Below are positions 810 to 34,243 of a stretch of DNA of 64,000 bases, piece after piece (positions within the stretch are counted from its first letter, which is position 1; each line of letters opens with the position of its first letter). Source of the stretch: a virus. The DNA is taken from IMG/VR virus record IMGVR_UViG_3300009506_000122, positions 1-64,000 of that record; one strand, written 5' to 3'. The notes under the pieces were generated by a model. That model saw nothing but the letters and a program-made list of their open reading frames with translations, was not told the origin of the DNA and searched no databases. The position numbers and the translations under genes are program-made.

Positions 810-2360
810 ATGCTATTGAAAGAGTTTAAGACCGAGACTACGGTCGAAAAGCAGATACTTACTGCTTTTATTGTTTCTGATGAATTGCTCCATCAGTTTG
901 CAGACATAACCAAATACGAATACTTTGAGAGCCACTATATTAGGGAGGTAATTAAATGGGTAGTTGAATATTACTTAAAGCACGAAAGAGCTCCTCGAAC
1001 ATACATTCAACAAATCTACGACTATAAGGTTGCAGATGGTAAAGTAGAAGCACCAGCCGCACAACTTATAGAACAGCTCCTCATAGAACTAAGCACACAA
1101 TTTGAAGTCCAAAACGAGGTTAATGTAGAATACCACGCTGAGATAATTGAGGAACATTATAGGGCTCGTGAGCTTGAGCTTCTGGCTAATCATGTACTTA
1201 ATCTGGTTAGTGAGGGCAGGTCTAAAGATGCAGAATTACTTGTTACTGGACATAATAAAGTAGCCCGATCTTTAGAGAGATTTATCAATCCCTTTGATGA
1301 GGACACTATTCGAAAAACGTTTGAAGAAAGGGCTAATGACTTCTTTAACTTCCCCGGTCAGTTAGGTACATTTCTCAGTCATTTTGAACGTGGATGGTTA
1401 GTAGGGTTATCTGGACCATTCAAACGTGGTAAGACATGGTATGCTCAGGAGTTTGCTGTTCAATCGATGCTAAGTTTCCGTAACGTTATGTTTTTTAGCC
1501 TTGAAATGTCTGAGAGGCAGATGAATGAGAGATTGTATAAGCGTCTAACTGTACTTGGAGATGAAGCAAGAACATATAATCTTCCCATATTCGATTGCAA
1601 GTACAATCAAGAAAACTCATGCACACGTCCAGAACGTGTTTGTAGAACTGGTTTGTTTGAAGAAAACGAATCATGGTCGTCTATTCCACCTCATTACAAT
1701 CCAGATATAGACTACCAAACATGCACAGAATGTAGGCATAACGGACAACTTGACAGATTTTACTTTCCTGCTGTTTGGTATGAGCAAGTAAAACGCCCAG
1801 CTTATGATGAAAGGCGTATAGCTCTAAAGCTAAGAAACATGCAGATGTATTTTCCGTATCTGAAATACAAATGCTATCCAAGATTCAGCGCAAACGTTTC
1901 TGATATTCGCCGAGACTTAAAGATGGTTGAATATCTGCATGATTTTATTCCAGATGTAATCGTGATAGACTACGCAGATATTCTAAAACCAGAAGACGGT
2001 ATAGAGGAAGGTTTTCAGAAAGAAGACAGAACTTGGATAGCATTAAGTCAACTTGCTATGGAACGCAACTGTCTTGTAGTAACTCCCACACAGGTAACTA
2101 AAGCTGGGCAAGATGCTCGTCAACAATCAGCTAAACATCAGGCTCGTTGGGTGGGCAAGCTTGGTCATGTTGACGTTATGTTAGCATTGAATCAGACCGA
2201 AGTAGAACAAAACAAAGGAATAATGAGGATATCACAGATAGCACACAGGCATGAGAAGTTTACTCCCTCGCTTAATTGTATCGTCTTACAAAACTTAGAC
2301 TTAGGACAACCCCATCTTGATAGTGAGATTCAAAGATTCGAGGAGAATGAAAATGATTGA
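810..2360 (+). CDS. dnaB: DnaB-like replicative DNA helicase with Cys-rich insertion
   Basis: About 516 residues. The start at 810 is chosen because GGGAG lies just upstream; the frame extends further 5' into the previous gene. The N-terminal third looks like a DnaB N-domain. The RecA-type motor follows with Walker A GPFKRGKTW (about 200-208), a FFSLEMS stretch and Walker B VIVIDYADIL (about 383-392). Between them, about residues 263-308, is an unusual insertion with at least five cysteines, including the pair CTEC, that could bind zinc. The role would be fork unwinding as a hexamer. The last bases overlap the start of the next gene. The assignment is strong; the insertion is not explained. 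Confidence 0.88.
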   Translation: MLLKEFKTETTVEKQILTAFIVSDELLHQFADITKYEYFESHYIREVIKWVVEYYLKHERAPRTYIQQIYDYKVADGKVEAPAAQLIEQLLIELSTQFEVQNEVNVEYHAEIIEEHYRARELELLANHVLNLVSEGRSKDAELLVTGHNKVARSLERFINPFDEDTIRKTFEERANDFFNFPGQLGTFLSHFERGWLVGLSGPFKRGKTWYAQEFAVQSMLSFRNVMFFSLEMSERQMNERLYKRLTVLGDEARTYNLPIFDCKYNQENSCTRPERVCRTGLFEENESWSSIPPHYNPDIDYQTCTECRHNGQLDRFYFPAVWYEQVKRPAYDERRIALKLRNMQMYFPYLKYKCYPRFSANVSDIRRDLKMVEYLHDFIPDVIVIDYADILKPEDGIEEGFQKEDRTWIALSQLAMERNCLVVTPTQVTKAGQDARQQSAKHQARWVGKLGHVDVMLALNQTEVEQNKGIMRISQIAHRHEKFTPSLNCIVLQNLDLGQPHLDSEIQRFEENEND

Positions 2361-3282
2361 CGACAACCCAATAACAGAAGATCGATTTTGGTGGATTCAA
2401 CAATTCTATGATCGATTTATGGCTATCATCTATGAACTTCCATTCTATGCAACGCTGTCATTTAGTGGAGGTATCGAATCATCAGCTATATTTTTTGGTC
2501 TAATCGAAAACGGCACACCACCTTACGAGTGCGTCACATTTCAAGTAGGATGTGACGAAACCAAGGATACTTACTATGCCAAAAAGATATGCAAGTACTA
2601 CGATGTTCCATTAGTCGTAGTAAAAATTCCCTTGATGTCAAGGGAGCAACTGATTAGCGAAGTAGCCAAGATTATCAAAATCATAAAAATCACTCGGAAT
2701 ATTGACATTCAATGCTGTCATGCCTACATGCACATGATTCCTAAAATAGATACCGCTAACATGATTACTGGTTTCTATGAGGATATTCACTATGAGGCTA
2801 ATAAAAAATTATTTATGATGTATAGGAAAATGAAAAAGGGTGAGATAGATCAAGAGTACTTCGAATCATACTACCGAGCAGGCAAAGAAGCTATCTTTCG
2901 TGGTCAAACACGAGCTGGCACAGTTCACAACTACATAACAATCGAAAACTTCCTAAATAAAAATGGGATAACACTATATTGTCCGTTCAAAGATAAAGTG
3001 TTGTTCGATATAACACAGGCATTGACGTTTGAAGAAACAAACTTCTTTAATGGGAAATTCAAAAAGAAATGGTTTATTACTCAGGTGATGTTTAAAAATT
3101 ACTTCGACAGATTTGGGAATCATAAGAACTCCAACTACATGCACACACAGGGAATGAAGCAGTACCATCAAAAAGTACTGCTTGAAGGTACTCCATACAA
3201 AGATACGATTGCAGTTTATAATAGGATTCATACTGGTCAAATAAGCGTTAGGAAAAAAATTACAGCCCCAACACTTTTTTGA
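2353..3282 (+). CDS. PP-loop ATP pyrophosphatase-like protein (asparagine synthase C-domain/QueC-like fold)
   Basis: About 309 residues. The start at 2353 follows GAGGAG by seven bases and overlaps the helicase stop. The N-terminal SFSGGIESSA (about residues 36-45) is a PP-loop, the ATP-adenylating signature of asparagine synthetase, GMP synthetase, QueC and PAPS reductase relatives. Such enzymes activate a carbonyl or phosphate by adenylation before amination or thiolation. The substrate is not evident: there is no glutaminase domain and no QueC zinc site that I can see. It stands two genes before a thymidylate-synthase-like protein and a radical SAM/DNA-methyltransferase fusion, so a role in nucleotide or DNA modification is plausible but inferred. 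Confidence 0.7.
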   Translation: MIDDNPITEDRFWWIQQFYDRFMAIIYELPFYATLSFSGGIESSAIFFGLIENGTPPYECVTFQVGCDETKDTYYAKKICKYYDVPLVVVKIPLMSREQLISEVAKIIKIIKITRNIDIQCCHAYMHMIPKIDTANMITGFYEDIHYEANKKLFMMYRKMKKGEIDQEYFESYYRAGKEAIFRGQTRAGTVHNYITIENFLNKNGITLYCPFKDKVLFDITQALTFEETNFFNGKFKKKWFITQVMFKNYFDRFGNHKNSNYMHTQGMKQYHQKVLLEGTPYKDTIAVYNRIHTGQISVRKKITAPTLF

Positions 3283-3378: not shown

Positions 3379-3918
3379 ATGAGTAAGGAAGATCGTTTGC
3401 AAAAGCGTGTCGATGCTCTCGACAACGCACGACTAAAGGAACAAGTCAAGGTTATAAACGAGTTGGGAGTTGCTGACAAAATCAGACTCGTTGGTTTAAA
3501 GAAACTTGACATGGTCAATCAATTCACACTCGCTGTGGAAAAAGTCGCAGAAGTTCAGGGTGAGGAAGCTATTCCTGATACATGCTCTGATCTTTATAAC
3601 GACCTGCACACAGACGATGAATCCCCGCTTGACGCTGCCCCCGCTGAAACGCCTAAGAAAACTCCCCCGAAAAAAGCGGCTGGTGGTGAAGGTAAGAAAG
3701 CGGGCCCTCCGAAGAAGCCCCTTGACGAATATGGTACTCGGGAAGGGACGCTCGCTCACACTTTCGTTCAGGAAGTGAAGAAGAAACCCCAATCTATGGA
3801 AGATGTTCGTAAAGCTGACTGGAATCCTCGTGGGTATCACTTCAACGATACTCTCCGCCGTCTCGAAGCTGACAAAAAAGCCACTGTGAATAAAGACGGG
3901 GTTATCACCATCAAGTAG
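3379..3918 (+). CDS. hypothetical protein with Lys/Pro/Ala-rich linker
   Basis: 179 residues, preceded by a strong GAGGAGG site. The N-terminal 60 residues look helical and charged. Residues about 75-120 are a low-complexity acidic then Lys/Pro/Ala-rich linker (repeated PKK and PPKK). The C-terminal 60 residues (from about EYGTREGTLAHTF) look folded, with an Arg/Lys-rich surface. No family is recognised. A basic disordered linker between two small domains fits a DNA-associated accessory protein, but nothing proves this. It is the first gene behind the promoter at 3293. Confidence 0.75.
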   Translation: MSKEDRLQKRVDALDNARLKEQVKVINELGVADKIRLVGLKKLDMVNQFTLAVEKVAEVQGEEAIPDTCSDLYNDLHTDDESPLDAAPAETPKKTPPKKAAGGEGKKAGPPKKPLDEYGTREGTLAHTFVQEVKKKPQSMEDVRKADWNPRGYHFNDTLRRLEADKKATVNKDGVITIK

Positions 3919-3925
3919 GTACGTT

Positions 3926-4642
3926 ATGGACTTGATTAACGCTACGAGTCCAGCAGATGCTTGGGTAAAAGCCACCAAGCATTTGCTGGACAATGGTCAT
4001 TGGGTGCATGACATTGTTGAAATACTGAATGTCTGCATATCGATTAGCTCAGAACATTGGTCTTCACCCGAACATGCGGCTACATATAAGCTGTTCGACA
4101 AATTGTTTAGACAGGTGTTTGGGGATGAAAGAATCGATTATGCCTCATCTGTGACATTCATTCATCCACCCAAAGGTGGTCTGTTCGGCAAGCGTACCTA
4201 TGTGTTCTTGAACGATAGATGGAGAGACTCATACTGGGGTCGTATGGTAGCTTACCGTGGAGAAGTCAATCAAATTGAAAACGCAATCTACATGTTAAGT
4301 CAGGGGAAGAATATCAAACGCTGTCAGGTTATGGTATATGACCCTACTATCGATATGAAAAACATGTATAAACAACCATGCTTGCTTGGTATCGATTTCA
4401 AACCTCGAAACGGTAGGCTATTTACGACCGCTTTTTTTAGAAGTCAACGTGTATCTAAAAGTGGTTATGCGGACTACATAGCCCTTTGCAAACTCGCAAA
4501 GTATGTGGCAAAAGAATCAAAGTTAGAAGTCGGCACAGTAGATATAATCGCTTGTTCTCTGCATTTAACCAAAGAGAATCAAGAGCGAACCAAATCTCTC
4601 GAACTCTTAGACTTACTGGAACAAAACTCATGGCAATTCTGA
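3926..4642 (+). CDS. thymidylate synthase-family protein, possible dCMP hydroxymethylase
   Basis: 238 residues. The thymidylate synthase pattern is recognisable: YWGRMVAYRGEVNQIENAI (about 103-121), a Cys in KQPCLLGIDF (Cys152, equivalent to the catalytic Cys in PPCH), NGRLFTTAFFRSQR (Arg172-Ser173, equivalent to QRS) and EVGTVDIIACSLHL. The residue matching Asn177 of E. coli ThyA is Asp183 (in GYADYIAL). Asp here is the hallmark that lets T4 dCMP hydroxymethylase take cytosine nucleotides. The protein is divergent, so either dCMP hydroxymethylase/methylase activity or loss of activity is possible. The stop overlaps the start of the radical SAM/methyltransferase gene, suggesting coupled translation and a shared modification pathway. 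Confidence 0.72.
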   Translation: MDLINATSPADAWVKATKHLLDNGHWVHDIVEILNVCISISSEHWSSPEHAATYKLFDKLFRQVFGDERIDYASSVTFIHPPKGGLFGKRTYVFLNDRWRDSYWGRMVAYRGEVNQIENAIYMLSQGKNIKRCQVMVYDPTIDMKNMYKQPCLLGIDFKPRNGRLFTTAFFRSQRVSKSGYADYIALCKLAKYVAKESKLEVGTVDIIACSLHLTKENQERTKSLELLDLLEQNSWQF

Positions 4643-6891
4643 TTCAATTACCTAACACCGCATCCACTTCTAAGTACCCTAAAACTTTCCCTCACCCACT
4701 AAACCTTGCATCTATAATTAAGTCAGACGATGTTATTGTGGATATAGCTGTCTCTACATTTAGAAAGAGACAATCGGAAGTATTTGAAGCTATTGATAAT
4801 GTTATCAGCGACCTACTGTCTACTGATAAAATTATAGTTAATGCTGGAGACTTCCCACCTGATGCGGCTTACGCTGTTTATTACGACTATTTCTTCGATC
4901 ACATGACGTTCCCTTATAAAGCGGTAGGAACGTATGCTAAATTAAAAAGAGACTGGCTTGAAAAACGGTATAAAAATTTCTCGTTTTTAGAGGAAGATGT
5001 AGTTTACCCTAAGTATGACTCGATTGATTATAGTCTATATCCTAAGGTAGATAATAAAGTTAGGGCATCTATTAGAGCCTCTTGGGGTTGTCCAAGAAGT
5101 TGTAGTATGTGTCCTGTACCTACCTACTTCGATCACAAATATGTCTACTTCGATCCTAAAAAAGTAGCAGAAGAAATAAAATTTTTATATGAGAACAGGA
5201 ATATACGCTATTTCACATTCGTTGACGATAATCTCTCCCATCATCCCAAGTTCGTCAAACTTCTCCTCGAAATAAGAAAGCTAAAACTGAAAGGAGTTAC
5301 ATTTCATTGTCAAGAAGGTTTTGATCTTGGCACATTTGATATGAAGCGAGCAAGACTTATCAAGGCTTTAAACTTTGACGATGTTAAAATAGCCTTCGAA
5401 TCAGTAATACCACGGACTACTGAGCTTATTAACAAGTCAAGCATAAACCCAGATTCTATAAATAAAGTCTTGGACATAATCAACGAAACAGAACTCAATG
5501 TTAAGGCGTTCATGCTTCTTGGTCTTGACGAAACTGAGGAAGAGATCATTGAAAATTTGAAATTCTTTGCTCGGAACAAAATGACTCTCCGTATCAACAT
5601 CGTTCGTGACTATGGTAATTTACCAAAAGAAATTTTGGAAGCAAGAATGGACGATAAGAAGCTCAAACATTATAAGGCTCTCGCTTATGCGTCAAGTTTT
5701 TATACTGAGCGATTTGGGCTGAACATTTTCGAATGTGACGGTGAGGAGTTTGAACGCAAGACTGGTTTGAAATATGATGGTGTCGATACCATTACAGGCA
5801 AGACTAACTATGGTTTTCAAACGAGCAGGCTTGAAAAGGGCATAAAATGGTTCTTTAAAAAAGACATCGAAAGCAACGATGGCAAACAAATTAAATTGGT
5901 TTGCGATCATAAAGAAGACGCCACTACATGTGATCTACCAGAACAGGATACTACTAAAGGATTTACCGCTGATGCGCTCAAAAAAAGCAGAGAGATCAGG
6001 AAAGAGTTTATGGCTAAATTTGGTGTCGAAGGTAAAGTGCCTACTTCGATACTGATTCACGATAGAAAGGAATATAGATATGAAACCATTGATCTATCAG
6101 CTCAACGAAGGGGAGGTAATTACGTCCATCATTATCGACTTAACAGGCAAAAAATGCACGAGCGAGAAGACTATACCCCCGGGCTTGAAAAGACTGGTTT
6201 TGAAACGCAGGGAAGAACTGGATATATATCAGGATTTCCTCAAAACGTTGGGCGCTTCATCATTCAAATGTACTGTCCCGATCCCCCCGCCCTTATCTAC
6301 GATCCCTTTGCTGGGCATAATAGTCGTATGCAACTCTGCTTCAAACTCGGACACAATTATATTGGTGTAGATTGTTGTCACGAGTTTATGGAAGATAACA
6401 AGACAATCAAAGATATACTCTATGAGAGAAAGGGACAACAGCTTGTCGAGACTTGGGATCAATCAATCTTTCTGTTCGAACAGAGTTCCGAGAGTGTGCC
6501 TGCTGTGAAGGATGAAATTTGTGATTTCACTATAACATCACCTCCATATTGGGACTTAGAATACTACGGTCCAGAAGAGGAACAACTCGGTACCGGCAAG
6601 ACTTATGAACAGTTTTTAGACGGCATCGAACGTGTAGTAAAAGAAAACTTCCGGGTACTAAAGCCAGGTAGTTTTTGTGCTTGGTTCATCAATGACTTCC
6701 GCAAGAAAAAGAAATTCTATCCGTATCATTCTCATATCTACGAAATACTTATCAATGCAGGCTTTGAGGGATTCAATATCTATATAGTTGATCTTGGAGC
6801 TACTGTTAATCACATGTTTGTACAGGACATTCTTAATCATAAAATACTGCCAAAGAGACATGAGTACTGCATACTGGTTAAGAAACCGTAA
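4630..6891 (+). CDS. radical SAM enzyme fused to a DNA methyltransferase
   Basis: About 753 residues from the ATG at 4630, which overlaps the previous stop; an upstream in-frame extension runs through the preceding gene and is less likely. The N-terminal half carries a radical SAM cluster motif, GCPRSCSMCP (CX3CX2C, Cys154/158/161), and a TIM-barrel-like FVDDNL segment as in the B12-type radical SAM group, although no B12-binding domain is visible. The C-terminal half carries DPFAGHNSR (about 558) with GVD nearby, the SAM-binding motif, and then TSPPYW (about 636-641), the catalytic motif of N4-cytosine/N6-adenine methyltransferases. Motif I before motif IV is a permuted order relative to the common beta class. 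Such a fusion suggests DNA base modification by radical chemistry. Confidence 0.85.
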   Translation: MAILIQLPNTASTSKYPKTFPHPLNLASIIKSDDVIVDIAVSTFRKRQSEVFEAIDNVISDLLSTDKIIVNAGDFPPDAAYAVYYDYFFDHMTFPYKAVGTYAKLKRDWLEKRYKNFSFLEEDVVYPKYDSIDYSLYPKVDNKVRASIRASWGCPRSCSMCPVPTYFDHKYVYFDPKKVAEEIKFLYENRNIRYFTFVDDNLSHHPKFVKLLLEIRKLKLKGVTFHCQEGFDLGTFDMKRARLIKALNFDDVKIAFESVIPRTTELINKSSINPDSINKVLDIINETELNVKAFMLLGLDETEEEIIENLKFFARNKMTLRINIVRDYGNLPKEILEARMDDKKLKHYKALAYASSFYTERFGLNIFECDGEEFERKTGLKYDGVDTITGKTNYGFQTSRLEKGIKWFFKKDIESNDGKQIKLVCDHKEDATTCDLPEQDTTKGFTADALKKSREIRKEFMAKFGVEGKVPTSILIHDRKEYRYETIDLSAQRRGGNYVHHYRLNRQKMHEREDYTPGLEKTGFETQGRTGYISGFPQNVGRFIIQMYCPDPPALIYDPFAGHNSRMQLCFKLGHNYIGVDCCHEFMEDNKTIKDILYERKGQQLVETWDQSIFLFEQSSESVPAVKDEICDFTITSPPYWDLEYYGPEEEQLGTGKTYEQFLDGIERVVKENFRVLKPGSFCAWFINDFRKKKKFYPYHSHIYEILINAGFEGFNIYIVDLGATVNHMFVQDILNHKILPKRHEYCILVKKP

Positions 6892-6908
6892 TCACCGAGG
6901 AGGTGAAC

Positions 6909-7421
6909 ATGAGCATGGTCAGTATAAAAGTCTTTGATTTCAACGAGAATCAACTTGACATCCTGAAAAAACTTTACCAAAAACATCTGATTAAGGATAA
7001 CAAGTGGCACTTCTTTTGGGAAGGTGACTATACTCTTATTCGCTGTCAAGAAGTAATGGCTTCGAAAGTCATGCGATTCCTGAGATTTTACAAAGTAAGA
7101 AGTAAAAATGAAGGAGAATGGATAGACAACATTAATATAACCTTGAAATACCAAAATCAATTTCAGGATATATTTCATGGCTTCTCAATTATAGCTATGA
7201 AGTGTACGGATGAAGAAATCGACATGCTCCTTGATAGAATGGTTCATTGTTTTCTAAACAATGTAACAACCGTAGAGAGACGAGACGGAGACTATATATT
7301 TTGGGAACCCATGAAGATAATAACAAATGCAGTACAACGGGCGGTATTTATTGGTCAAATGATAGAAAGGAGCAAACATGGTTCTGTCAGAGAAAGAATC
7401 AAGGAAGGCAAAGGTGAATAG
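6909..7421 (+). CDS. hypothetical protein
   Basis: About 170 residues. GAGGAGGTG ends a few bases before the ATG at 6909, which I prefer over the GTG at 6903. The sequence is rich in aromatic and charged residues (KWHFFWEGDYTLIRC, RDGDYIFWEP) with no recognised motif and no membrane segment. The 3' end overlaps the next start by 44 bases, so it belongs to the same transcription unit. Function is unknown. Confidence 0.75.
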   Translation: MSMVSIKVFDFNENQLDILKKLYQKHLIKDNKWHFFWEGDYTLIRCQEVMASKVMRFLRFYKVRSKNEGEWIDNINITLKYQNQFQDIFHGFSIIAMKCTDEEIDMLLDRMVHCFLNNVTTVERRDGDYIFWEPMKIITNAVQRAVFIGQMIERSKHGSVRERIKEGKGE

Positions 7422-9040: not shown

Positions 9041-9185
9041 TTGGTTAGAAAGTCCTTTACCTGACTATATTTGTAAGGTGGATTTGTTTTACTTTGCGTT
9101 AATCTGTTTAGCTTTAGGAGTTTTTATAGGTACTCGTTATGGAAGGTTTTTTCACAAGAGACGAAATAGAGAGGAACGCAGTTAG
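9021..9185 (+). CDS. candidate small membrane protein overlapping clamp and polymerase genes
   Basis: 54 residues. The ATG at 9021 follows GGGGAAG by six bases. The predicted peptide has a hydrophobic helix DLFYFALICLALGVFIGTRY followed by a strongly basic tail (RFFHKRRNREER), a typical single-span, positive-inside membrane protein. It fills the 98-base gap between the clamp stop and the polymerase start and overlaps both in another frame. No family is recognised. The ribosome site and topology support it, but the overlap keeps confidence moderate. Confidence 0.42.
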   Translation: MMIFLFNWLESPLPDYICKVDLFYFALICLALGVFIGTRYGRFFHKRRNREERS

Positions 9186-11748
9186 ACGTATTGACGCTGA
9201 CTCCGCATGTCTCGAATGTGGTCTATACACTAAATGCAAATCACCTAAGATGGAAGTACATGGTGAAGGCAAGTTAAATTGTCTGCTACTTGCAGAAGCT
9301 CCTGGGGGAGAAGAAGACGAGTATGGTCAACAACTTGTGGGACCTACTGGTAGTTTCTTTAAGAACAGGCTTTTAAAGAATCGCTTTTACTTGAAGACTG
9401 ACTTTTGGAGATTAAACGCAGTTAATTGCAGACCAACCACACCCAAAGGTACAAACAGAACTCCTACCACACATGAGATCGATTGTTGTAGACCAATGGT
9501 AATGGATACAATCGAAAAACTAAAGCCAAAATTTATCTGGCCGATGGGAGGTATAGCTCTTGAATCTTTGTTTAGCCAAGATTTTAAACGCTTGTCAATA
9601 GGTAGATGGCGTGGAACGTTTATACCAGATCAACAATACCAATGTTGGATTATGCCCCTATACCATCCCTCTTACCCTAACCGAGATAAATCAAACAGAA
9701 ACTTAAACGCCTTCTACGATCACGATTTAAAAAGAGCCCTCGATTTTGTTAGAGTGCAAACACCTCTTGATTTTCCAATATATCCTAATGGTAAAAAGAA
9801 TGTGGACGTTGTAACTGACTTTGATTCTATCATTTCGGCTCTCGATCACATATACAATAGTGCTAACCTTATACATATTGACTACGAGACTACTGGCTTA
9901 AAACCATATATACCAGGACACCGTATAGCATCGACAGCTATATCTATATTGGATAGAGTTATAGCTTTTCCTTATGAATATGGTTCATTTTTCACCAATA
10001 AACAAAGACTAAAAATAAAACGTGGTCTAAGAAAGATATGGAAAAATGAGAACATTAGAAAAGTGGCTCATAATGCTAAGTTTGAGCATATTTGGACTAC
10101 TACAATTCTCGATGTTGTGCCTGCTAATTGGTATTGGTGTACTCTACAAGGAGCTCATATCCAAGACAATCGACAGGCTTGGCCTTCGTTGAAGTTTCAA
10201 ACGTATATACACTTTGGTCAACGTGGTTGGGGGAAGAGTGTCAATAAATACCTTGAAGCGACAGATGGCCCATTTAACAACGTTGACAAATGTCCCTTGT
10301 CTGATCTGCTGTTATACAATGGACTTGATGTTTATTGGACTAACATGTTGCATCAGAAGCAGGAAGAATTTTATAATCATCCAGATAATAGTAGATTAAA
10401 GTTTGCCTTCGATTTGTTTAATGAAGGAAGCATTGTGCTTGCAGACGTTCAAAATAATGGAGTACATGTAGATGAGGAGTATTGTCATGCAGAACAAGAA
10501 AGATTCCAAAAGAGAATTGTCGTCATTGAAAAACGTATTTCTGGAAGCAAAGAGGCTAAACTCTTTGAGAGAAGAACGGGCCGCACTCTTTCCCTCAAAG
10601 ATAAAGACTACTCGGACAATGATTTACAAACATTGTTTTATGATATACTTAATCTCGGTCCTGAAAAGAAAGAGGGTCAACCAGCTCCTCCCAGAAAAGT
10701 GGACGAAGAAACTCTCCAAGATTTTGAATCAGAAGTTGCTGATCTCGTACTTAAACGTAGGAAGTTTAGGAAGATTGAAGGAACATATCTCGCACAATTC
10801 ATAAGGGAAACATATTATGGTATTATGTATCCTTGGTATGATCTTATTATTCCTGTATCATATCGTGGTTCGTCACATGATCCCAACTTTCAAAACATTC
10901 CCAAGAGAGACGAGCAAGCTAAAAAGGCTACCCGTAGAGCTATCATACCAAGTCCGGGTAATCAGTTATTAGAGTCTGACTTCTCTGGCATTGAGGTTTG
11001 TATAAATGCTTGCTACAATCAAGACCCAACGCTTATCGCTAACGTTACCGATCCGACTCAAGATATGCACAGAGATACAGCCGCTGATCTTTGGATGATA
11101 CCGATAAAAGAAGTCCACAAGAAAGTGAGATTCTATGCAAAGAACCAGTGGGTGTTTCCTCAGTTTTATGGTAGCTATTATGTTCAATGTGCTAAAAATC
11201 TTTGGCGCACAGCTAAACGGGAAGAATTAAAAACAAATTCTGGTAAACCCTTGCTTGACATTATGCGCTCGAAGGGTATAACTACTTACTCACAGTTTGA
11301 AGATCATTGTAAGGGAGTAGAAAGGAGCTTCTGGCAGGAACGATTCAAAGTTTATGCACAGTGGAAAAATGATATTCAACGCACTTATCAGAATCAAGGC
11401 TTCATAGAAACATTTCTCGGATTTCAATTCAAAACATATATGGGTAGGAACGAGTGTACTAACTATCCAGCTCAAGGTACAGCCTTTCACATTTTACTAT
11501 GGACTCTGATTCAAGTCCATAAAGAGATCAAAAAAAGACAAATGAAATCAAAGATCATAGGTCAGATTCACGATAGTATGATTACCGATGCTGTGCCGAG
11601 TGAAGTAAATGACCTAATCAAGATCATTGATTTTTATGGAACAAAGCGCACCGTTGAAACTTTTAAGTGGATATCGGTGCCTTTGAAGATCGACCACGAA
11701 CTGACTGGTGTAAACGAAAGTTGGTATCTAAAGAAGGAGGTGAAGTAA
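9139..11748 (+). CDS. family A DNA polymerase with N-terminal uracil-DNA glycosylase domain
   Basis: 869 residues in three parts. Residues 1-210 match family 4 (iron-sulfur) uracil-DNA glycosylases: Cys24/27/33, AEAPGGEEDEYGQQLVGPTG (52-71), NCRPTTPKGTNRTPTTHEID with following Cys, and LYHPSYP (184-190). Residues about 240-430 carry a 3'-5' exonuclease beginning HIDYETTGL (Asp248, Glu250). The polymerase palm shows SDFSGIEV (about 613-620) and QIHDSM (about 808-813). It copies the phage genome with the clamp and clamp loader nearby. A glycosylase-like N-domain is also reported for SPO1-type polymerases; whether it excises uracil here or only senses it is not visible. Confidence 0.9.
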   Translation: MEGFFTRDEIERNAVRRIDADSACLECGLYTKCKSPKMEVHGEGKLNCLLLAEAPGGEEDEYGQQLVGPTGSFFKNRLLKNRFYLKTDFWRLNAVNCRPTTPKGTNRTPTTHEIDCCRPMVMDTIEKLKPKFIWPMGGIALESLFSQDFKRLSIGRWRGTFIPDQQYQCWIMPLYHPSYPNRDKSNRNLNAFYDHDLKRALDFVRVQTPLDFPIYPNGKKNVDVVTDFDSIISALDHIYNSANLIHIDYETTGLKPYIPGHRIASTAISILDRVIAFPYEYGSFFTNKQRLKIKRGLRKIWKNENIRKVAHNAKFEHIWTTTILDVVPANWYWCTLQGAHIQDNRQAWPSLKFQTYIHFGQRGWGKSVNKYLEATDGPFNNVDKCPLSDLLLYNGLDVYWTNMLHQKQEEFYNHPDNSRLKFAFDLFNEGSIVLADVQNNGVHVDEEYCHAEQERFQKRIVVIEKRISGSKEAKLFERRTGRTLSLKDKDYSDNDLQTLFYDILNLGPEKKEGQPAPPRKVDEETLQDFESEVADLVLKRRKFRKIEGTYLAQFIRETYYGIMYPWYDLIIPVSYRGSSHDPNFQNIPKRDEQAKKATRRAIIPSPGNQLLESDFSGIEVCINACYNQDPTLIANVTDPTQDMHRDTAADLWMIPIKEVHKKVRFYAKNQWVFPQFYGSYYVQCAKNLWRTAKREELKTNSGKPLLDIMRSKGITTYSQFEDHCKGVERSFWQERFKVYAQWKNDIQRTYQNQGFIETFLGFQFKTYMGRNECTNYPAQGTAFHILLWTLIQVHKEIKKRQMKSKIIGQIHDSMITDAVPSEVNDLIKIIDFYGTKRTVETFKWISVPLKIDHELTGVNESWYLKKEVK

Positions 11749-24054: not shown

Positions 24055-24678
24055 TTATGATAGATCACTTCCACGAGCAACCAGTTTAGATTGATAAAAA
24101 CGATACCCAAAATTTTCAATGTCAGCCTGATACATTTGAGCTACCTTAGACCTTGTTATATCATTGTAAAATAGAGAATAATGCTCATGTTCCGTTTGCA
24201 TAAGATGTTCTAAAGGCTCTACCTTTAGTCCTAACTTTTCTCTGACATAATCAAAATCTTTTCTTAGGTTTTCAAATCTACCTACGAAGTCAACATACTT
24301 CCATTCCTTGTGATATGCGAAGGCTGTTTGACTTACTGCGTGATTCCTGATGTCGTCTCTTGTCTCACATATCTTCTCAAAGTTTAGGACAAATTCTTCA
24401 AATGAAGGTATAGGTCCTACCCAACGATCCGCTAAAGGAGAACCCTTTCTTGTGGGTGTGTATGTTGTAAAGTAGACATACAGAGACACAAATCTATCCC
24501 AAGGGTTTCTAACGAAAGTGAACTTGAAAGCCTCTTCAAACCAATCAAACGTGACCTCTTCTAAAAACCTTATAAATCCAGTCTTGTTTGTCCTCATGTT
24601 TAGCGTGACGTAGTTCGGTTGAAGATACCCTCTGTGGAGAGTCGTGCTTGCGTTCTTCGGTATTCGGAAGAATATCAT
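24055..24678 (-). CDS. carbohydrate sulfotransferase-like protein
   Basis: About 207 residues from the ATG at 24678, preceded by AAGGAG; a longer frame to 24744 lacks a ribosome site. FRIPKNASTTLHR at the N-terminus is the 5'-phosphosulfate loop, and FTFVRNPWDRFVSLYVYF the 3'-phosphate-binding loop, of PAPS-dependent family 2 sulfotransferases. These transfer sulfate from PAPS to sugar hydroxyls or amines. It is the last gene of the glycan island, and a second sulfotransferase is at 28872. Sulfation of phage glycans is the inferred role. Confidence 0.82.
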   Translation of the reverse strand: MIFFRIPKNASTTLHRGYLQPNYVTLNMRTNKTGFIRFLEEVTFDWFEEAFKFTFVRNPWDRFVSLYVYFTTYTPTRKGSPLADRWVGPIPSFEEFVLNFEKICETRDDIRNHAVSQTAFAYHKEWKYVDFVGRFENLRKDFDYVREKLGLKVEPLEHLMQTEHEHYSLFYNDITRSKVAQMYQADIENFGYRFYQSKLVARGSDLS

Positions 24679-24831
24679 CTTCGGCTCCTTCATCACAACG
24701 CAGGGTAGCATCAAAACTGCTTTGAAATTTTTGGCGGTAAGCATCTTTATCCCCCATATTAAATCCGTTAAAGTTAAGAACAGTCTCCGCTAAAATCTCC
24801 ATGACTATTCGACTACTTATCCCAACTCCAT

Positions 24832-25881
24832 TTATATAGATGGTGGAGCCCAGATTTGAACCCACTCGTCTATCGTCATTTTTTGACGTGCTTTTATATG
24901 TTCCCTTTGATTTTTGCATTTAACTATGACCTCATCAAACATACGTTTTAGCACTTCAGGACGCCCCTTCGCTATGCTGATGAAACGATTACCAACCTCT
25001 TTCCCCCCGAAAAGATAGGTTGCTAAAATTCTGTTTCTAATGTGGTCGTCATAGTTCCAACTATACCCTCTCTTTTCTCCATGGTGACACAACACGCCGT
25101 TAGGGTATATCCATTTTTTGTAACCCAAAACAGCAAGGGTGTAGTTCATAAAATTCTCACCACCTCCGTATATGCCAAGTTCGCTTGGCCAGCCCCCTAA
25201 CTCGTTGTAAATCTTTTTGGACATCATCATTCCACATGTACTCATGCAGGGTACTTCATACGGGTTTTCTTCTGGTCTAAACGCACTAAACGTATAATGA
25301 ATACCCGCTGGTTTACCTTCATAACGTTCCACGACCAGCTTGTAAATAAGTCTGTGCCATTCTAAAATTTTGTAAGTCAAAGGAAGATGTAACGTACCGT
25401 TGATTTCTTCCTCATGTTCCACATAATACTTAAACATATTATAGATTGAATCTCGTCCTACAATACAATGAGAATCAACAAACATGAGGTAATCCCCTGT
25501 GGCTTGGTCACACCCAAATCTCTTTGAATTCCAGTGACTAAGTTTATCTTTATACTCGAAATACTGTAACCACTGATGTCCTCTCGAACATGCTTTAAGA
25601 GAACCCCCACCTTTATCTTCTTCAAATGAGTTCATAACAAGATCGAAGATCGCTTTTAAATGACCGTCACTTCTATATCCTGTCTTTAAAAGGTGTGCTT
25701 GTAGTTTTTCAAGTTCAATAGCCGTTTGCGCTTTGTGTTGTGTCTCCACCTCAGGACAATAGTTATTTACTGTGATGATTTCAAAGTCTGCCCTGTCTCG
25801 AAGTTCTTCCCCTAAGTTTCTGATCGTGAACATGACCTGAGGATATTCATTAACATAGGGAACGATTATTGATAATTTCAT
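24832..25881 (-). CDS. family GT-A glycosyltransferase resembling polypeptide GalNAc-transferases
   Basis: 349 residues. The N-terminus KLSIIVPYVNEYPQVMFTI is a nucleotide-sugar-binding GT2-type start. The metal motif is MFVDSHC (DSH at 136-138), the D-x-H form that characterises GT27 polypeptide N-acetylgalactosaminyltransferases (LDSHC in animals), not the usual DxD. Further on, LGIYGGGENFMNYTLAVLGY (GGGEN 239-243) matches the WGGEN acceptor-site motif of the same family, and His266-His267 could be the later metal/His ligand. GT27 enzymes start mucin-type O-glycans on Ser/Thr. There is no lectin domain. Thr/Ser-rich virion proteins are encoded a few kilobases away. Confidence 0.8.
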   Translation of the reverse strand: MKLSIIVPYVNEYPQVMFTIRNLGEELRDRADFEIITVNNYCPEVETQHKAQTAIELEKLQAHLLKTGYRSDGHLKAIFDLVMNSFEEDKGGGSLKACSRGHQWLQYFEYKDKLSHWNSKRFGCDQATGDYLMFVDSHCIVGRDSIYNMFKYYVEHEEEINGTLHLPLTYKILEWHRLIYKLVVERYEGKPAGIHYTFSAFRPEENPYEVPCMSTCGMMMSKKIYNELGGWPSELGIYGGGENFMNYTLAVLGYKKWIYPNGVLCHHGEKRGYSWNYDDHIRNRILATYLFGGKEVGNRFISIAKGRPEVLKRMFDEVIVKCKNQREHIKARQKMTIDEWVQIWAPPSI

Positions 25882-25893
25882 AATAACTCCTTT

Positions 25894-26661
25894 CTAAACC
25901 TTTTTCCAGTGAGTAAACCACTCTACATTTACGCCACCTGTTTTCTCGTAACCATGTTGTCTCATCCAATCCCTTCCAATATCATTAATCCCCCTACCAC
26001 TATTTTGCGGCTGAAAGATTCCAAATCGTCTACCAATCACATGCTTCTTTACAAAGTCTGGATAATAGTGAAACTGCTTTTCAGGATTGCGAGTTGGATT
26101 TATATCTTCCGCAGCGGCTCTTAACCAGTCACCGTCATTTAAAGATGGGTGACCACACCAGCCTACTGGCACAATACCCTTTTCTTCAATCTCGAAGAAG
26201 TCCCCATTCCAGAAAGCGAAAAACTTGCCCCACATCTTTGTCTCGTTCTCTTTACTGATAAATTGATTGAGCCTCAGATGAACAAGATTTTCATGGTTCT
26301 CAAATATGGATACCATCTTACGGAAGTCGTGTTCATAGTTGACAACCCAATCTTCCTCAAGGTGAAAGACAAATTTAGAGGTTGACTTCTTAATACCCCA
26401 CAACCAAGCAGTAGGAAAGTGTGGGTCTTTCACGTTCATTTCATAGTTGTCCTTACCAAACAAGTCTTTGACAATCTCTTGAATTTGATAGACCCTATAA
26501 TCAGCTATCTCCTCATTTTCTTCCCCTGCTTTGTCTACGTTGATATAGATTTTGGCAAAGTTAGCATCGTCTTTCCATAATCTATCACAAAACGATACCA
26601 ATGTCCTATTCAACAATTCTGGTCGTAAGGTAGCTACAACAGCAACATCAAAGTTATCCAT
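25894..26661 (-). CDS. glycosyltransferase (GT-A fold)
   Basis: 255 residues. FDVAVVATLRPELLNRTLVSF is a GT-A nucleotide-binding start, and FVFHLEEDWVV provides the acidic metal-binding motif. The C-terminal NDIGRDWMRQHGYEKTGGVNVEWFTHW is conserved in phage and bacterial glycosyltransferases of this kind, as far as I recall. It overlaps the following methyltransferase start. It would extend or decorate the glycan; donor and acceptor are unknown. Confidence 0.75.
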   Translation of the reverse strand: MDNFDVAVVATLRPELLNRTLVSFCDRLWKDDANFAKIYINVDKAGEENEEIADYRVYQIQEIVKDLFGKDNYEMNVKDPHFPTAWLWGIKKSTSKFVFHLEEDWVVNYEHDFRKMVSIFENHENLVHLRLNQFISKENETKMWGKFFAFWNGDFFEIEEKGIVPVGWCGHPSLNDGDWLRAAAEDINPTRNPEKQFHYYPDFVKKHVIGRRFGIFQPQNSGRGINDIGRDWMRQHGYEKTGGVNVEWFTHWKKV

Positions 26662-27274
26662 TTGTCCACCTCTTCCTGTATATTAAACAGTTTTGAAAAA
26701 ATGCTCGAATACCATCTTTATGTTTCCATGGGGAAAGATAGACTCTAAAACGGTCTTCAAGCAACGGTTCTTTCGCATACCCCATATCTTCAAACTTTTG
26801 ATTCCAGTACTCGAAGGGCTGACAGTTGTAATGATGATGTCCTTTCTGTCCTGGTGGAGCGGCTGAAATTACGATATTATACGAAAGATTGCATAGGTTC
26901 TTTACAAACATATCCGCATATTCCTCTTGAATATGCTCTGCTACTTCAAAACAGGATAGTATTTCATATCTTTTAACAATCATAAATTTGTGAACCGATT
27001 CTCTTAGATCACAAAAGGTCACACGCTCTCGTGGACATTCTAAGAATGGAAGAGCTTCTTCGGAACCCTCGATACCATAAGCATCCCACCCACGTCTTAA
27101 CCCCTCATTCACAAGATCACCGATAGCGCAACCTACATCGATATAATCAACGAATGACATTGAATCCAAATTAAAAGTTTTTTCGATAGCGTTGAGTACA
27201 TGAGGAGCTCTCCAACTCAACTTGTACCTACGACTAAAGAAGCCTTTCCCGTATTCCTTCGCAACTGGCGTCAT
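26654..27274 (-). CDS. class I SAM-dependent methyltransferase
   Basis: About 206 residues from the ATG at 27274; an in-frame ATG at 27292 is also possible and neither has a strong ribosome site, so coupling to the overlapping upstream gene is likely. FVDYIDVGCAIGDLVNEG is motif I (GCAIGD), AYGIEGSEEAL the acidic strand 2 end, and ILSCFEVAEHIQEEYADMF the type 11/23 post-motif. APPGQKGHHHYN follows. These enzymes methylate sugars or lipids. Together with the neighbouring glycosyltransferases it probably O-methylates the glycan. Confidence 0.75.
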   Translation of the reverse strand: MTPVAKEYGKGFFSRRYKLSWRAPHVLNAIEKTFNLDSMSFVDYIDVGCAIGDLVNEGLRRGWDAYGIEGSEEALPFLECPRERVTFCDLRESVHKFMIVKRYEILSCFEVAEHIQEEYADMFVKNLCNLSYNIVISAAPPGQKGHHHYNCQPFEYWNQKFEDMGYAKEPLLEDRFRVYLSPWKHKDGIRAFFQNCLIYRKRWTNG

Positions 27275-27815
27275 TGTTATCCATCCACCCATGTGTCTTG
27301 GCTTTTCTAATTATTGTTAAACCAGCTCTTGGTCCTGGTAGGGTTACCATTTCAAGTTTATAAGAACTGTTTCTTAAACTTCTAACTGCTTTCCATGCAC
27401 TCCCACAATATCTTTTTTGACATAATTTCTCATTTATTGGATAGGTATCGTGAAGAAATATCAAACCAGTATGTTCAGGGACATACACTTCTAACCCTAT
27501 AAAGTCCCGCAATACTTGTCGTTTGCTATGGTCACCATCAATAAAAAGAAAGTCTATGACTTTATCCTCTTGTTTGCCCCATTCTTGAACAAAGTCGTCA
27601 CTTGACATTTGAAAGTGTATAGCTCCCTTCTTTTTGTAAATACCTCTAAAAGGAGCTATATCTACCGCAACTGCTCTTTCTACAAGGGGAGCTACCCTAT
27701 TATAAACATATCCCTTTTTAACTCCTATCTCACAATATGTTTTGGGTTTAAATAGCATTACTAACTCAAGAATTAAGTCCCTAAACTCTTGATATTTTTG
27801 TCCCTTTTCGTGCAT
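27234..27815 (-). CDS. class I SAM-dependent methyltransferase (Methyltransf_24)
   Basis: 193 residues. KTYCEIGVKKGYVYNRV is motif I; VAVDIAPFRG and DFLFIDGDHSKRQVLRDF are the type 24 signature, with GLIFLHDTY after it, the pattern of sugar and macrolide O-methyltransferases that use a metal. It resembles the enzyme at 21326. It overlaps both neighbours, so the island is translated as a tightly coupled operon. Confidence 0.78.
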   Translation of the reverse strand: MHEKGQKYQEFRDLILELVMLFKPKTYCEIGVKKGYVYNRVAPLVERAVAVDIAPFRGIYKKKGAIHFQMSSDDFVQEWGKQEDKVIDFLFIDGDHSKRQVLRDFIGLEVYVPEHTGLIFLHDTYPINEKLCQKRYCGSAWKAVRSLRNSSYKLEMVTLPGPRAGLTIIRKAKTHGWMDNNDASCEGIRERLL

Positions 27816-28927
27816 AGTCTTAAAAATTCCTTCTTTGCTTCGAGCGTAGGTTTGGTATTATTTCTCATAAAATCAAATACGAACCTTATGTTAGGGTAAC
27901 ATGCTTCTTTAAAGCCTTGATTCTGTTTAAAGAAGTTAGCCACAAATTTTCGATTAGGAGTTTTGGACAATAGCTTGTGCATAAGTTCAACAACTTGTTC
28001 GGTATTATTAACATCTTTGGGAGTCAACGATACGTTTTCATCACAAACTGTTGGACTATGGTAACGTCTGCTCCCAACAATTAGAGGTAGACCAGAAGCA
28101 AGAGCTTCGAGAGCGCCCCTATCACCCTGACCATGAGTGCCAAGAAACATGCCAATTTTAGAGCGATTAAAAACGTTTGCGTTCAAATTCTCACGGGACA
28201 GCATACCTGTAATAGTGACATTTAATCCATGATCGTGAATCTTCGTCATTATCTTTGAGGTCTGAACACCACGAGTGCCAAACCCAGGAAGTATGGCTTT
28301 TAAATTCTTACCATACTTCTCCTTGTATGCTATAAGTGCGTTGATAACACGCCATTGACCCTTCTTGTCGTGAATATGAGAAGCACCTATACAAACATCA
28401 TAAAAGATAGTTTGATCCATAGGGTAGAATATGCTTTCGTCTATCGGTTTTTTGTAATAGTACCATACCCTATTATGTCGGTCAATCTCCGTATTTTCAT
28501 ACAAATCCCACAGAATAATATCCCAAAATGTCCAACGTTCCCTACCAGTATTTGCATTGTAACACATCAGCCAATTCTTATTTTTGTGAAATGTTAAGAA
28601 CTCGTGCCACCCTCTAAATCCACCTCTGACATAGATTATTGTATCAGGTTTCACAAATTGATACACCCACTTGATTGAGGGGCATACATACCCAACAATA
28701 CCACGACCCCAATCAGCGAACCCCGGACCTCTATTCGACTCATAAAATACCATGACATCGTCCACAACACCTGTTCGCTTCAACTCTGAAAGCATTAGAA
28801 ATGTTCCTTCAGATTTCATAGCATCTGTATATTTATCGATACATGGATAGTTTGGGTCCCAGTTGCTAATTTCAGATTGGGGCGCACTCCCCTGGCTCAT
28901 ATACAGATAAACAACTTTTAAACTCAT
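27773..28927 (-). CDS. glycosyltransferase family 4-like (GT-B)
   Basis: 384 residues. The C-terminal half carries DRGALEALASGLPLIVGSRR, the EALA-G-P motif that binds the nucleotide-sugar in GT4 enzymes, and VTITGMLSRENLNANVFNRSK upstream. The N-terminal half has the acceptor domain (TIIYVRGGFRGWHEFL). Retaining sugar transfer from a nucleotide donor is expected. It overlaps the sulfotransferase gene before it by 56 bases. Confidence 0.78.
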   Translation of the reverse strand: MSLKVVYLYMSQGSAPQSEISNWDPNYPCIDKYTDAMKSEGTFLMLSELKRTGVVDDVMVFYESNRGPGFADWGRGIVGYVCPSIKWVYQFVKPDTIIYVRGGFRGWHEFLTFHKNKNWLMCYNANTGRERWTFWDIILWDLYENTEIDRHNRVWYYYKKPIDESIFYPMDQTIFYDVCIGASHIHDKKGQWRVINALIAYKEKYGKNLKAILPGFGTRGVQTSKIMTKIHDHGLNVTITGMLSRENLNANVFNRSKIGMFLGTHGQGDRGALEALASGLPLIVGSRRYHSPTVCDENVSLTPKDVNNTEQVVELMHKLLSKTPNRKFVANFFKQNQGFKEACYPNIRFVFDFMRNNTKPTLEAKKEFLRLCTKRDKNIKSLGT

Positions 28928-29594
28928 GGATTAACCTCTTTCTTGCCTTATAGTAAAATGCGATATCCTTCTTATTCAAATTAGCACAGTAACATTTCTC
29001 CTCTGGTGTGCCCCACTTAAACCACTGTCGTTTCAGTCTTCTCGTATTTCTTCGGTAGTATGGAGGTATCTCATGCCCAATTACTTGAGATAAAACACAA
29101 AGACTTTCTTCGTACATTTCCATTATCCCAATAAAAGCAAAGTCGTCAACATCATAGTCGCCCACATAATTTTTAAAAACCTCGTTATGATTATCACAGT
29201 ACCATGTAAAGTCCCTCTTTTCGAGTATGACCTCTTTATGTAGGGGACTTGATCTTCCAGTTATTCGTTTCTGTTTGATTACCGAATATTCAGATTCCAT
29301 TCTTGATACCGGATGTCTTAACCATGTTATATACGGTCTTTTCAAAAAGCTGTATTTATCTACGTTAATGTGTCCATGAACAACATCAGCATTAGCCAAA
29401 TGTCTTGAATTGTAATACTTTAGTCTGCCATGAACAAACACAGAATCTTCACTTTTGTCCCAAAGAAACCTTTCCCCATAGATGTCTTGAAATATAAAAC
29501 CGAGTGTAGTACCTCCACATTTATGAACGTGAATAGATACAAATTCACTTATTGGCTTCTTCCCTAACAAATTTATTCCAGAATCCTCGCTCAT
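28872..29594 (-). CDS. carbohydrate sulfotransferase-like protein (second copy)
   Basis: 240 residues. SIHVHKCGGTTLGFIFQDI is the 5'-phosphosulfate loop in the form of heparan- and chondroitin-type sulfotransferases (HIPKTGGT), and YITWLRHPVSRMESEYS the 3'-phosphate loop. PAPS would come from the host. It is unlike the enzyme at 24055, so two different positions may be sulfated. No signal peptide or membrane anchor is visible, so it acts in the cytoplasm. Confidence 0.82.
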   Translation of the reverse strand: MSEDSGINLLGKKPISEFVSIHVHKCGGTTLGFIFQDIYGERFLWDKSEDSVFVHGRLKYYNSRHLANADVVHGHINVDKYSFLKRPYITWLRHPVSRMESEYSVIKQKRITGRSSPLHKEVILEKRDFTWYCDNHNEVFKNYVGDYDVDDFAFIGIMEMYEESLCVLSQVIGHEIPPYYRRNTRRLKRQWFKWGTPEEKCYCANLNKKDIAFYYKARKRLIHEFKSCLSVYEPGECAPI

Positions 29595-30237
29595 GCTTTA
29601 AAACCCCCTTATAATTCAAACTGGCCGAAACATTATTAACTCCCGGTATGTGGTAAATAAAGCATGGATACAGTTGAACAAAAGCTAAACCAAGTTTGTG
29701 TATAATATGATGCCCTATCCAATTATCCCCAAAGAATATATTGTAATGATCGGGAATCAAAGGTACTGCATTGGCTACTTCTCGCTTCATTAGTACCGCA
29801 GAGCATTTACCTTTGCCTGTACCAAGAAGAAGACCTCTCAAATGCTCCAGCCGAATGTTTTTGGTTTTTATTGGTCTTCTTTTTTCTTGTTGTATGATTT
29901 CTGGAACTACTGCACCAGCTTCAACACCGTCATATTTTATATTTAATCCGTATACCATCTTCTCTACCATTGTAGGTTCGAGTCTGTAATCATCACCCAA
30001 AATTCCACAGTAAGTGTCTTCGAGTCTCAGAGCTATATTCCAAACTGGATTAGTACCAAGATTCTTACTGGGACGTTCTACCACAAGATCGTATAGGTAT
30101 TTGGTATTACTAAAATATTGCGTAGAATTATCCACCAGTATTACACGAGTTGGGAGCAACGTCTGATTGTTCAGATCATGCAGTACCCTTCTCACCATTA
30201 TTGGTCGCATAGATGGTATGACAAATGATATGGTCAT
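29545..30237 (-). CDS. glycosyltransferase family 2-like
   Basis: 230 residues. TISFVIPSMRPIMVRRVLHDL is the GT2 nucleotide-binding start, VILVDNST the next strand, and CGILGDDYRLEP contains the DxD-type metal motif (GDD). The length is that of a minimal GT-A domain. The start overlaps the radical SAM gene upstream (stop/start). Substrate unknown. Confidence 0.78.
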   Translation of the reverse strand: MTISFVIPSMRPIMVRRVLHDLNNQTLLPTRVILVDNSTQYFSNTKYLYDLVVERPSKNLGTNPVWNIALRLEDTYCGILGDDYRLEPTMVEKMVYGLNIKYDGVEAGAVVPEIIQQEKRRPIKTKNIRLEHLRGLLLGTGKGKCSAVLMKREVANAVPLIPDHYNIFFGDNWIGHHIIHKLGLAFVQLYPCFIYHIPGVNNVSASLNYKGVLKHERGFWNKFVREEANK

Positions 30238-31202
30238 ATAAATCTTCGGTGTCTTAGAGGAAGATATTGACTCCCTCTTGCGTTCTCATAAACCTTAGCA
30301 TAGTTTGAGTACCGACAAGATGCACCACACATGCTGAGATCTGGTTTAAATACTGGTCTCCACTTAGAATATATCTCTAAAAGATTCATGTGGTTTAAAT
30401 CACCAATCTCAAACTGGGGCTTTCCTCTATGAATACAGCAATAGTAGATTTTCCCAGTAGCATTTAGAACACCGATTAAACCAGCGATCTTACACGCTGT
30501 CAAGGAATTTCGATCTATATTGTATCGCTCAGTAACAAAGAACTTATCTCTATTCAAGCCCTTCATTTCAGCTTCTATATCACAGTTCCTAACTTCTGGT
30601 TTGACTTGTGCATAGTGAGCTCCTACAGACTTCGAGAGTTCGTAAAAATCATCCACTTCTTTCCTATTATAATCTGTAACAACAAACGCAAGACCCACGT
30701 CTGTTACATTCTTATCAACCACATGTTTTACATTTTCGATTATTCGATTGAAGTGTTTGGTGTGCTTTGTTTGATAGTATGTCTCAGCATTAGACGTGTC
30801 CAAACTGACTCTAACAAATTCTAACTCTCCCAACACCTCTCCAATCTTATCAAGAAATATGCCATTGGTGACTAAACCACATTTTATTCCTAAACGGGTA
30901 GCAAACTTCACCATATCTACAATCTTAGGATTCATTAATGGTTCACCACCACCAGTAAATGTGATCGATTTAACACCAGTACGATAAAAATCCCAGACCG
31001 CTTTCACATATAAATCATACGACAAATGAACCCTATGATTTTTAATGTGAAAGGCAAACATGCAAAAGTCACAATCATTTTGACATGTGTTGGAAGCATC
31101 TATTTCGAAGGATACTGGTAACTGATAACGATTCTCCATAAGATTATCTACTTCCCGTAGAAAGAACAGTATCTTATGCCCGAAACCCACTTCATTATTC
31201 AT
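30234..31202 (-). CDS. radical SAM enzyme with Cys-rich C-terminus (SPASM-like)
   Basis: About 322 residues from the ATG at 31202, behind GGAGGT that overlaps the end of the previous gene. SNTCQNDCDFCMFAFH is a CX3CX2C radical SAM cluster motif; ITFTGGGEPLMNP is the GGE SAM-binding motif; SLDTSNAETY follows. The C-terminal CGASCRYSNYAK and the earlier CKIAG and YYCCIHRG segments supply additional cysteines for an auxiliary cluster as in SPASM/twitch proteins. Such enzymes modify peptides, sugars or nucleosides. Its place in the middle of the glycan operon suggests radical modification of a sugar or of the protein acceptor. Confidence 0.82.
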   Translation of the reverse strand: MNNEVGFGHKILFFLREVDNLMENRYQLPVSFEIDASNTCQNDCDFCMFAFHIKNHRVHLSYDLYVKAVWDFYRTGVKSITFTGGGEPLMNPKIVDMVKFATRLGIKCGLVTNGIFLDKIGEVLGELEFVRVSLDTSNAETYYQTKHTKHFNRIIENVKHVVDKNVTDVGLAFVVTDYNRKEVDDFYELSKSVGAHYAQVKPEVRNCDIEAEMKGLNRDKFFVTERYNIDRNSLTACKIAGLIGVLNATGKIYYCCIHRGKPQFEIGDLNHMNLLEIYSKWRPVFKPDLSMCGASCRYSNYAKVYENARGSQYLPLRHRRFI

Positions 31203-31204
31203 AA

Positions 31205-32555: not shown

Positions 32556-32882
32556 TTATGACCGGGGCTTCTCTTTTACATATAGGAATACATCTTTTTC
32601 AAAAAGATTATTTTGGTTTGTTCCCATTTTAAAGGTAATACAATATGGAGACGCAGTTTCAACACCCTCATCGGCTTTTATGCGTTGATACAATTTCAAC
32701 CCATCAGAAGAAACAGAAGGATTTCCCTGCAACAAATCAGCGGCATCAGTACCATCTTTATCCTGACAAGTCACCTCAGAACTGATTGCCGTAATCTGTT
32801 CACCTGTTTGAGCAACATTAGCAATCCCACCATAAATGCTAAAAGTTTCAGAAGCCTGTTTTGTTAATTGACTAATCGCCAT
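32556..32882 (-). CDS. small putative virion protein next to the Thr-rich protein
   Basis: 108 residues, behind AAGGAGAT. SETFSIYGGIANVAQTGEQIT and a later SPYCITFKMG look like a compact beta protein; proteins of this size and position often accompany phage fibre genes. It overlaps the end of the Thr-rich gene by 11 bases. No firm family. Confidence 0.6.
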   Translation of the reverse strand: MAISQLTKQASETFSIYGGIANVAQTGEQITAISSEVTCQDKDGTDAADLLQGNPSVSSDGLKLYQRIKADEGVETASPYCITFKMGTNQNNLFEKDVFLYVKEKPRS

Positions 32883-34029: not shown

Positions 34030-34211
34030 TGTGGTTGTTGTAGTAGAACTCGAGGACGTTGTAGATGTCTGAGTAGTCGTAGACGTAGTACTCGAAGTCG
34101 AGGACGTTGTCTCACTTGTAGTAGTTGAGGACTGAGTTGTTGTGGTTGAGCTGGTTGTTGTTGTAGTCGTTGTGGACGTAGTAGACGTTTCACCAGGCTC
34201 AGTCGTAGTTG

Positions 34212-34243
34212 TGGTACTAAAGGTTGATGGTACTAAAGGTTGA
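34212..34243. repeat. 16-bp perfect tandem duplication causing a frameshift
   Basis: TGGTACTAAAGGTTGA occurs twice in direct tandem (34212-34227 and 34228-34243). 16 is not a multiple of three. On the - strand the second copy brings in the stop that ends the upstream frame as STFSTINL, while a single copy would read STFSTTTTTEPGETS and continue for another 440 residues. Confidence 0.9.

Follow-up and report, generated by a model that had tools for sequence, protein, structure and literature searches.

The fusion gene and its junction

The window, the 64,000 nt stretch of virus record IMGVR_UViG_3300009506_000122 that was analysed, contains a frame of 753 uninterrupted codons, with an ATG at 4630, coding sequence to 6888, and a TAA at 6889-6891 (Table 1). 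Given the base composition of the frame, 753 codons would stay free of stops by chance with a probability of about 6e-24, and in GC3 and codon usage both halves match the neighbouring phage genes. A radical SAM domain and an amino-type DNA methyltransferase domain both match Pfam above the curated cut-offs within this single frame, in agreement with the original prediction of one polypeptide carrying both.

Table 1. Features of the fusion gene and the genes upstream of it (window positions).
Feature	Position	Strand	Evidence
PP-loop ATP pyrophosphatase-like protein, SGGIESS	2350..3282	+	weak QueC / Asn synthase matches
Conserved small gene between the PP-loop and TS-like genes	3379..3918	+	relatives' gene order
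Thymidylate-synthase-like (TS-like) gene, 238 aa	3926..4642	+	domain and structure-profile matches, alignment with T4 gp42
Fusion gene, 753 aa: N-terminal radical SAM, C-terminal amino-type DNA methyltransferase	4630..6891	+	open frame, domain matches, codon statistics, start/stop analysis
N-terminal 147 residues, no Pfam match, low-confidence model	4630..5070	+	Pfam search, model
Radical SAM core, residues 153-312	5086..5565	+	Pfam, phage alignment, model, Foldseek
Radical SAM C-terminal extension and linker, no family match	5566..5937	+	Pfam search
DNA methyltransferase half, residues 443-753	5956..6888	+	Pfam, PHROG, alignment, solved relatives, model, fold search, PADLOC
Motif I DPFAGHNSRM, residues 558-567	6301-6330	+	alignment
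Motif IV TSPPYW, residues 636-641	6535-6552	+	alignment

In alignments, the first residues of the free-standing relatives of the methyltransferase fall near position 437-443 of the window protein. There is no ATG, GTG, or TTG in frame between codons 424 and 460 of the fusion gene, so the old methyltransferase start is gone. Intact relatives start at the very junction at which the window lacks a start codon, and we take the joined gene to be a real domain fusion. Codon 461 (6010) is an in-frame ATG preceded at 8 nt by AGGA, and some free methyltransferase without the conserved N-terminal helix could be made from it besides the fusion. The order helicase, small genes, methyltransferase, clamp, PolA, clamp loader is common to the window and to loci L005, L006, L008, and L014 of related phages, which makes an assembly chimera unlikely.

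The radical SAM half

The Pfam Radical_SAM match has an E value of 1.4e-16 and scores 61.5 bits against a cut-off of 29.5. The cluster motif, GCPRSCSMCPVP, has the CX3CX2C spacing that had been predicted, with cysteines C154, C158, and C161; together with the Pfam match this places the protein in the radical SAM superfamily, with a canonical domain. The core also has DDN at 199-201 (after strand 2), FES at 256-258 (strand 4), and GLDET near 298-302, at strand 5. The AlphaFold2 model is weak (pLDDT 45, pTM 0.49) and was used for strand order and general fold only; in it the core, modelled at low confidence, has six alternating strand/helix units with the strands in order, as would be expected of a partial (beta/alpha)6 TIM barrel.

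The nearest solved relative of the core is AprD4 (6fd2), both in sequence (6.6e-4) and as the top Foldseek match in fold (7e-6), and MgmA (9ccb) is also among the Foldseek matches. The top NCBIfam matches are of the B12 type, PhpK (1.4e-10) and BchE (1.2e-9), both far under the cut-offs. The core is similar in sequence and fold to AprD4, MgmA, BchE, and PhpK, but unlike these AprD4-like and B12-type enzymes the window protein has no detectable B12-binding domain and is joined to a DNA methyltransferase. Residues 1-147 have no Pfam match to a B12-binding domain even at an E value of 10, and since these residues match nothing a cobalamin domain is unsupported.

Among phage proteins, the radical SAM half is distantly related to the family phrog_9298 (hhalign probability 96.5, E 7e-10), and the GCxRxCxxCxVP, DxN, Q/E-G-x-D, and iAf motifs of that family (L031, L037-L047) align with it. 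A direct match is lacking, however, as no PHROG profile, that of phrog_9298 included, matches the radical SAM half at E values up to 1.

The methyltransferase half

The Pfam N6_N4_Mtase model matches two stretches in the last 200 residues, the best at 632-707 (E 4.4e-13, 50.1 bits against a cut-off of 26.7). With a motif IV of the (S/D/N)PP(Y/F) type, this identifies the C-terminal half as a complete amino (N4C/N6A) DNA methyltransferase. The motifs follow the order I, then IV, and HEY is also present. Both motifs of the original prediction, TSPPYW and DPFAG, are there, the latter as part of DPFAGHNSRM and not of a plain DPFAGxGT. PADLOC assigns this half to its Type II methyltransferase models (2.9e-19), and the solved relatives are the putative DNA methylase TTHA0409 (2zie, 2.9e-16) and the cytosine-N4 DNA methyltransferase 8s9n (1.6e-5). 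In the model the methyltransferase core has a pLDDT of mostly 82-96. Methyltransferase-type names head its viral fold matches (BFVD), several of them named cytosine-N4 methyltransferase; for the unnamed BFVD entry A0A8S5VSZ6 (747 aa) 729 columns were aligned at an rmsd of 27, too poor to interpret. The SPPYW motif and the profile match to 8s9n point indirectly to a possible cytosine N4 target.

Relatives were found in 19 viral loci (L004-L022), and 13 sequences including that of the window were aligned. TSPPY is invariant in 13/13, while motif I reads FAGHNSRM, against the expected FxGxG, in the aligned members that cover it, with the exception of L017 (FMGQGIQM). This GHN in place of GxG makes ordinary use of SAM by the methyltransferase half uncertain. 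The window and L004 copies are 77% identical with a dN of 0.14 and saturated dS, which places the family under strong purifying selection. In four loci, L018 (6276-10397), L019, L020, and L021, the homologue is interrupted by three inteins, two of which are at motif I and motif IV, which is consistent with functional active sites.

The free-standing phage methyltransferases (phrog_12517, phrog_498, and L004-L022, with Mycobacterium phage Vincenzo gp1 and Bacillus phage G gp294) have the same fold, the same I-then-IV order, and TSPPYW. The closest metagenomic ones are 38-77% identical to the methyltransferase half. None of these free-standing proteins was seen with a radical SAM domain, whereas the window copy forms the C-terminal part of a fusion.

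Upstream neighbours

The end of the TS-like gene overlaps the start of the fusion gene by 13 nt. Its product has the MilA CMP 5-hydroxymethylases as best solved relatives (1.2e-5), and in the alignment with phage homologues it keeps Cys152 (catalytic), Arg172-Ser173, and an Asp aligned with the Asp of T4 gp42. A catalytic Cys, a phosphate-binding Arg-Ser, and an Asp replacing the Asn of thymidylate synthase are features of the dCMP hydroxymethylase type, the Asp at this position being the residue that selects cytosine in the TS family, and the product is likely to be dCMP/CMP 5-hydroxymethylase-like. These residues are shared with T4 gene 42 dCMP hydroxymethylase and MilA, although the window protein is only 14-24% identical to the aligned phage proteins and no other part of the T4 hydroxymethylcytosine pathway was seen. 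In a scan that was not exhaustive, neither a dCTPase nor a dNMP kinase gene, both of which T4 needs for hydroxymethylcytosine DNA, was among the genes covered.

In phages with thymidine hypermodification (Salmonella phage ViI, Pseudomonas phage M6, and Glutamicibacter phage Montesquieu), TS-like hydroxymethylation is followed by tailoring enzymes, an arrangement similar to the one proposed here. Unlike these, the window combines a TS homologue of the cytosine type with a fused methyltransferase, and there is no alpha-glutamyl/putrescinyl thymine pyrophosphorylase among the genes scanned. In the case of the small gene 5' of the TS-like gene, a relative in L005 likewise precedes the methyltransferase.

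A variable island in related phages

The methyltransferase adjoins helicase, clamp, and PolA in a variable island, the other genes of which encode base-chemistry enzymes. A PALP gene is present in the island of L006, L007, L008, L010, and L014, and a second methyltransferase in that of L006, L008, and L010. In L007 the PALP gene lies between two radical SAM genes of the SPL-like (DNA photolyase-type) class (3450-7034) in the same island as the methyltransferase, so that, judging from the gene content, radical SAM enzymes accompany the methyltransferase in at least two different forms. Across these loci the methyltransferase is thus the fixed element, and the base-chemistry enzymes beside it vary. 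In L005 and similar relatives there is no radical SAM, TS-like, or PALP gene adjoining it, and loci of this type, having no radical SAM gene beside the methyltransferase, suggest that the methyltransferase half works without a radical step.

The PALP-fold (PLP-dependent) enzyme recurs near this methyltransferase family, and is also found in L032 (1406-2275) and in Mycobacterium phage AlanGrant (gp1/gp2); in Montesquieu there is a PALP gene near the TS-like gene. It is possible that this enzyme is an unrecognised partner in DNA modification.

Other features of the window were also recorded. At 9139-11748 a uracil-DNA glycosylase domain precedes, in one fused protein, a DNA polymerase of family A that has a 3'-5' exonuclease, and relatives such as L005, L006, and L008 have a similar long polymerase. 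The minus-strand region 24055-32470, between late genes, encodes glycosyltransferases, two sulfotransferases, small SAM methyltransferases, and an unlinked radical SAM protein (30237-31214). Long Thr/Ser-rich (TTSTTTT) stretches or tails are present in the late proteins of 32872-37063 and in those of several other late genes.

Searches for other fusions

The original prediction had come with a proposal to look for the fusion in other phages, and within the limits of the scans none was found. No radical SAM domain is present in the methyltransferase relatives from other phage contigs, and tblastn against 50,697 phage records gave no second fusion. Neither did close-relative scans of IMG/VR, for which the queries were the fusion protein as a whole, its radical SAM half alone, two DNA patterns of the cysteine motif, and the two genes upstream, nor close-relative pattern scans of 84,980 prokaryote genomes. 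None of the plasmid matches of the radical SAM half extends past the radical SAM core. The pattern scans match exact short stretches, which distant copies would escape. The searches cover phage GenBank records well but are poor at finding distant copies in IMG/VR and GTDB. The record of the closest relative, L004, opens within the methyltransferase gene and does not reach the junction.

A literature search for a radical SAM domain fused to a DNA base methyltransferase found no report, and we know of no such enzyme. Both domains are of known kinds; the collections and the literature searched gave no example of their fusion.

Proposed function and alternatives

The joining of a radical enzyme to a DNA methylase, with a cytosine-altering gene adjoining, suggests that the virus probably places an unusual mark on its DNA. 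We consider that there is about an even chance that the fusion is a bifunctional phage enzyme that hypermodifies a base, probably cytosine, in the DNA of the phage itself. The C-terminal half would bind duplex DNA and SAM, flip out an amino-bearing base, most likely cytosine, and most likely methylate it. The N-terminal half would reduce another molecule of SAM at its [4Fe-4S] cluster, and the resulting 5'-deoxyadenosyl radical would alter the same base at the methyl, the 5-hydroxymethyl, or a ring carbon. Cytidylate hydroxymethylated at C5 would likely come from the product of the TS-like gene, which is coupled to the fusion gene by the overlap, and activation or amidation of an intermediate may fall to the PP-loop enzyme. 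A more specific and more tentative proposal is that one polypeptide generates a doubly altered cytosine, with N4 altered by polar SAM chemistry and C5, or the group transferred, by radical SAM chemistry, the base having been hydroxymethylated beforehand by the TS-like partner. To our knowledge neither such a base nor such a type of enzyme has been described.

The continuous frame, the cofactor and catalytic motifs, the fusion at the point where free-standing relatives start, the TS-like active-site residues, and the overlap are all read directly from the sequence. From domain identity and context, which support the hypermodification reading, we infer the activity of each half, the target base, the step order, the product, and protection against restriction. 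The original prediction had proposed DNA base modification, either by methyl transfer and then a radical step or by a radical reaction aimed by a methyltransferase-type DNA reader. The modification itself gains from the cytosine-type TS homologue, the PP-loop ATPase, and the placement among replication genes, but no sequence result shows the methyl-then-radical order. A radical-first order, a radical modification steered by the methyltransferase, and two independent activities are each possible. Against hypermodification, no second fusion was found that would show the joined form to have been kept by selection. The relatives of the L005 type, the lack of dCTPase and dNMP kinase genes among those scanned, and the GHN variant of motif I also speak against it.

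It is unlikely, if by no means far-fetched, that the C-terminal half protects DNA as an ordinary N4C/N6A methyltransferase and that the radical SAM half acts elsewhere, on a nucleotide, protein, or cofactor, the two having been joined by loss of a stop and a start and being merely co-expressed. This would fit the other intact loci, in all of which the methyltransferase has no radical SAM domain, and the scatter of radical SAM genes in other contexts in these phages, such as the unlinked gene of the window. The lost junction start makes the joined product obligatory, however, save for the possible internal start at codon 461, and base modification is what the TS-like and PP-loop genes beside it would fit.

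The methyltransferase half may instead be a DNA-binding, base-flipping reader, or carry out a non-methyl transfer, leaving the radical SAM half as the only or main source of base modification. This is kept alive by motif I, where GHNSRM instead of GxGT in nearly the whole family is unusual for methyl transfer from SAM, and by the SPL-like enzymes, a DNA-acting class of radical SAM enzymes, in the island of L007. The invariance of the catalytic TSPPY, on the other hand, suggests that amino-group chemistry has been retained, and we regard a reader as quite improbable.

A B12-dependent radical SAM methylase combined with the DNA methyltransferase into a C-methylation plus N-methylation machine, to which the PhpK, BchE, and MgmA matches might point, was rejected as very improbable: no B12 domain was found, the compared phage radical SAM group also has a short N-terminus, and AprD4, the top fold match, belongs to a group that we take to work without cobalamin. 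That the halves are separate genes with the stop hidden by a sequencing or assembly error, the outcome that was to count against the original prediction, is suggested by the single metagenomic record with no second copy of the junction, but was likewise rejected as highly unlikely given one frame with no frameshift, like codon usage, the gene order of the relatives on either side, and the start codon lost where free-standing homologues begin.

The known activities of radical SAM enzymes include the tailoring of RNA and the repair of DNA. Should the fusion prove to modify DNA, phages would be shown to use radical chemistry directly on polymer DNA to make new bases, and an enzyme encoded by one gene would be a convenient handle for the discovery of such a base and of its role against restriction.
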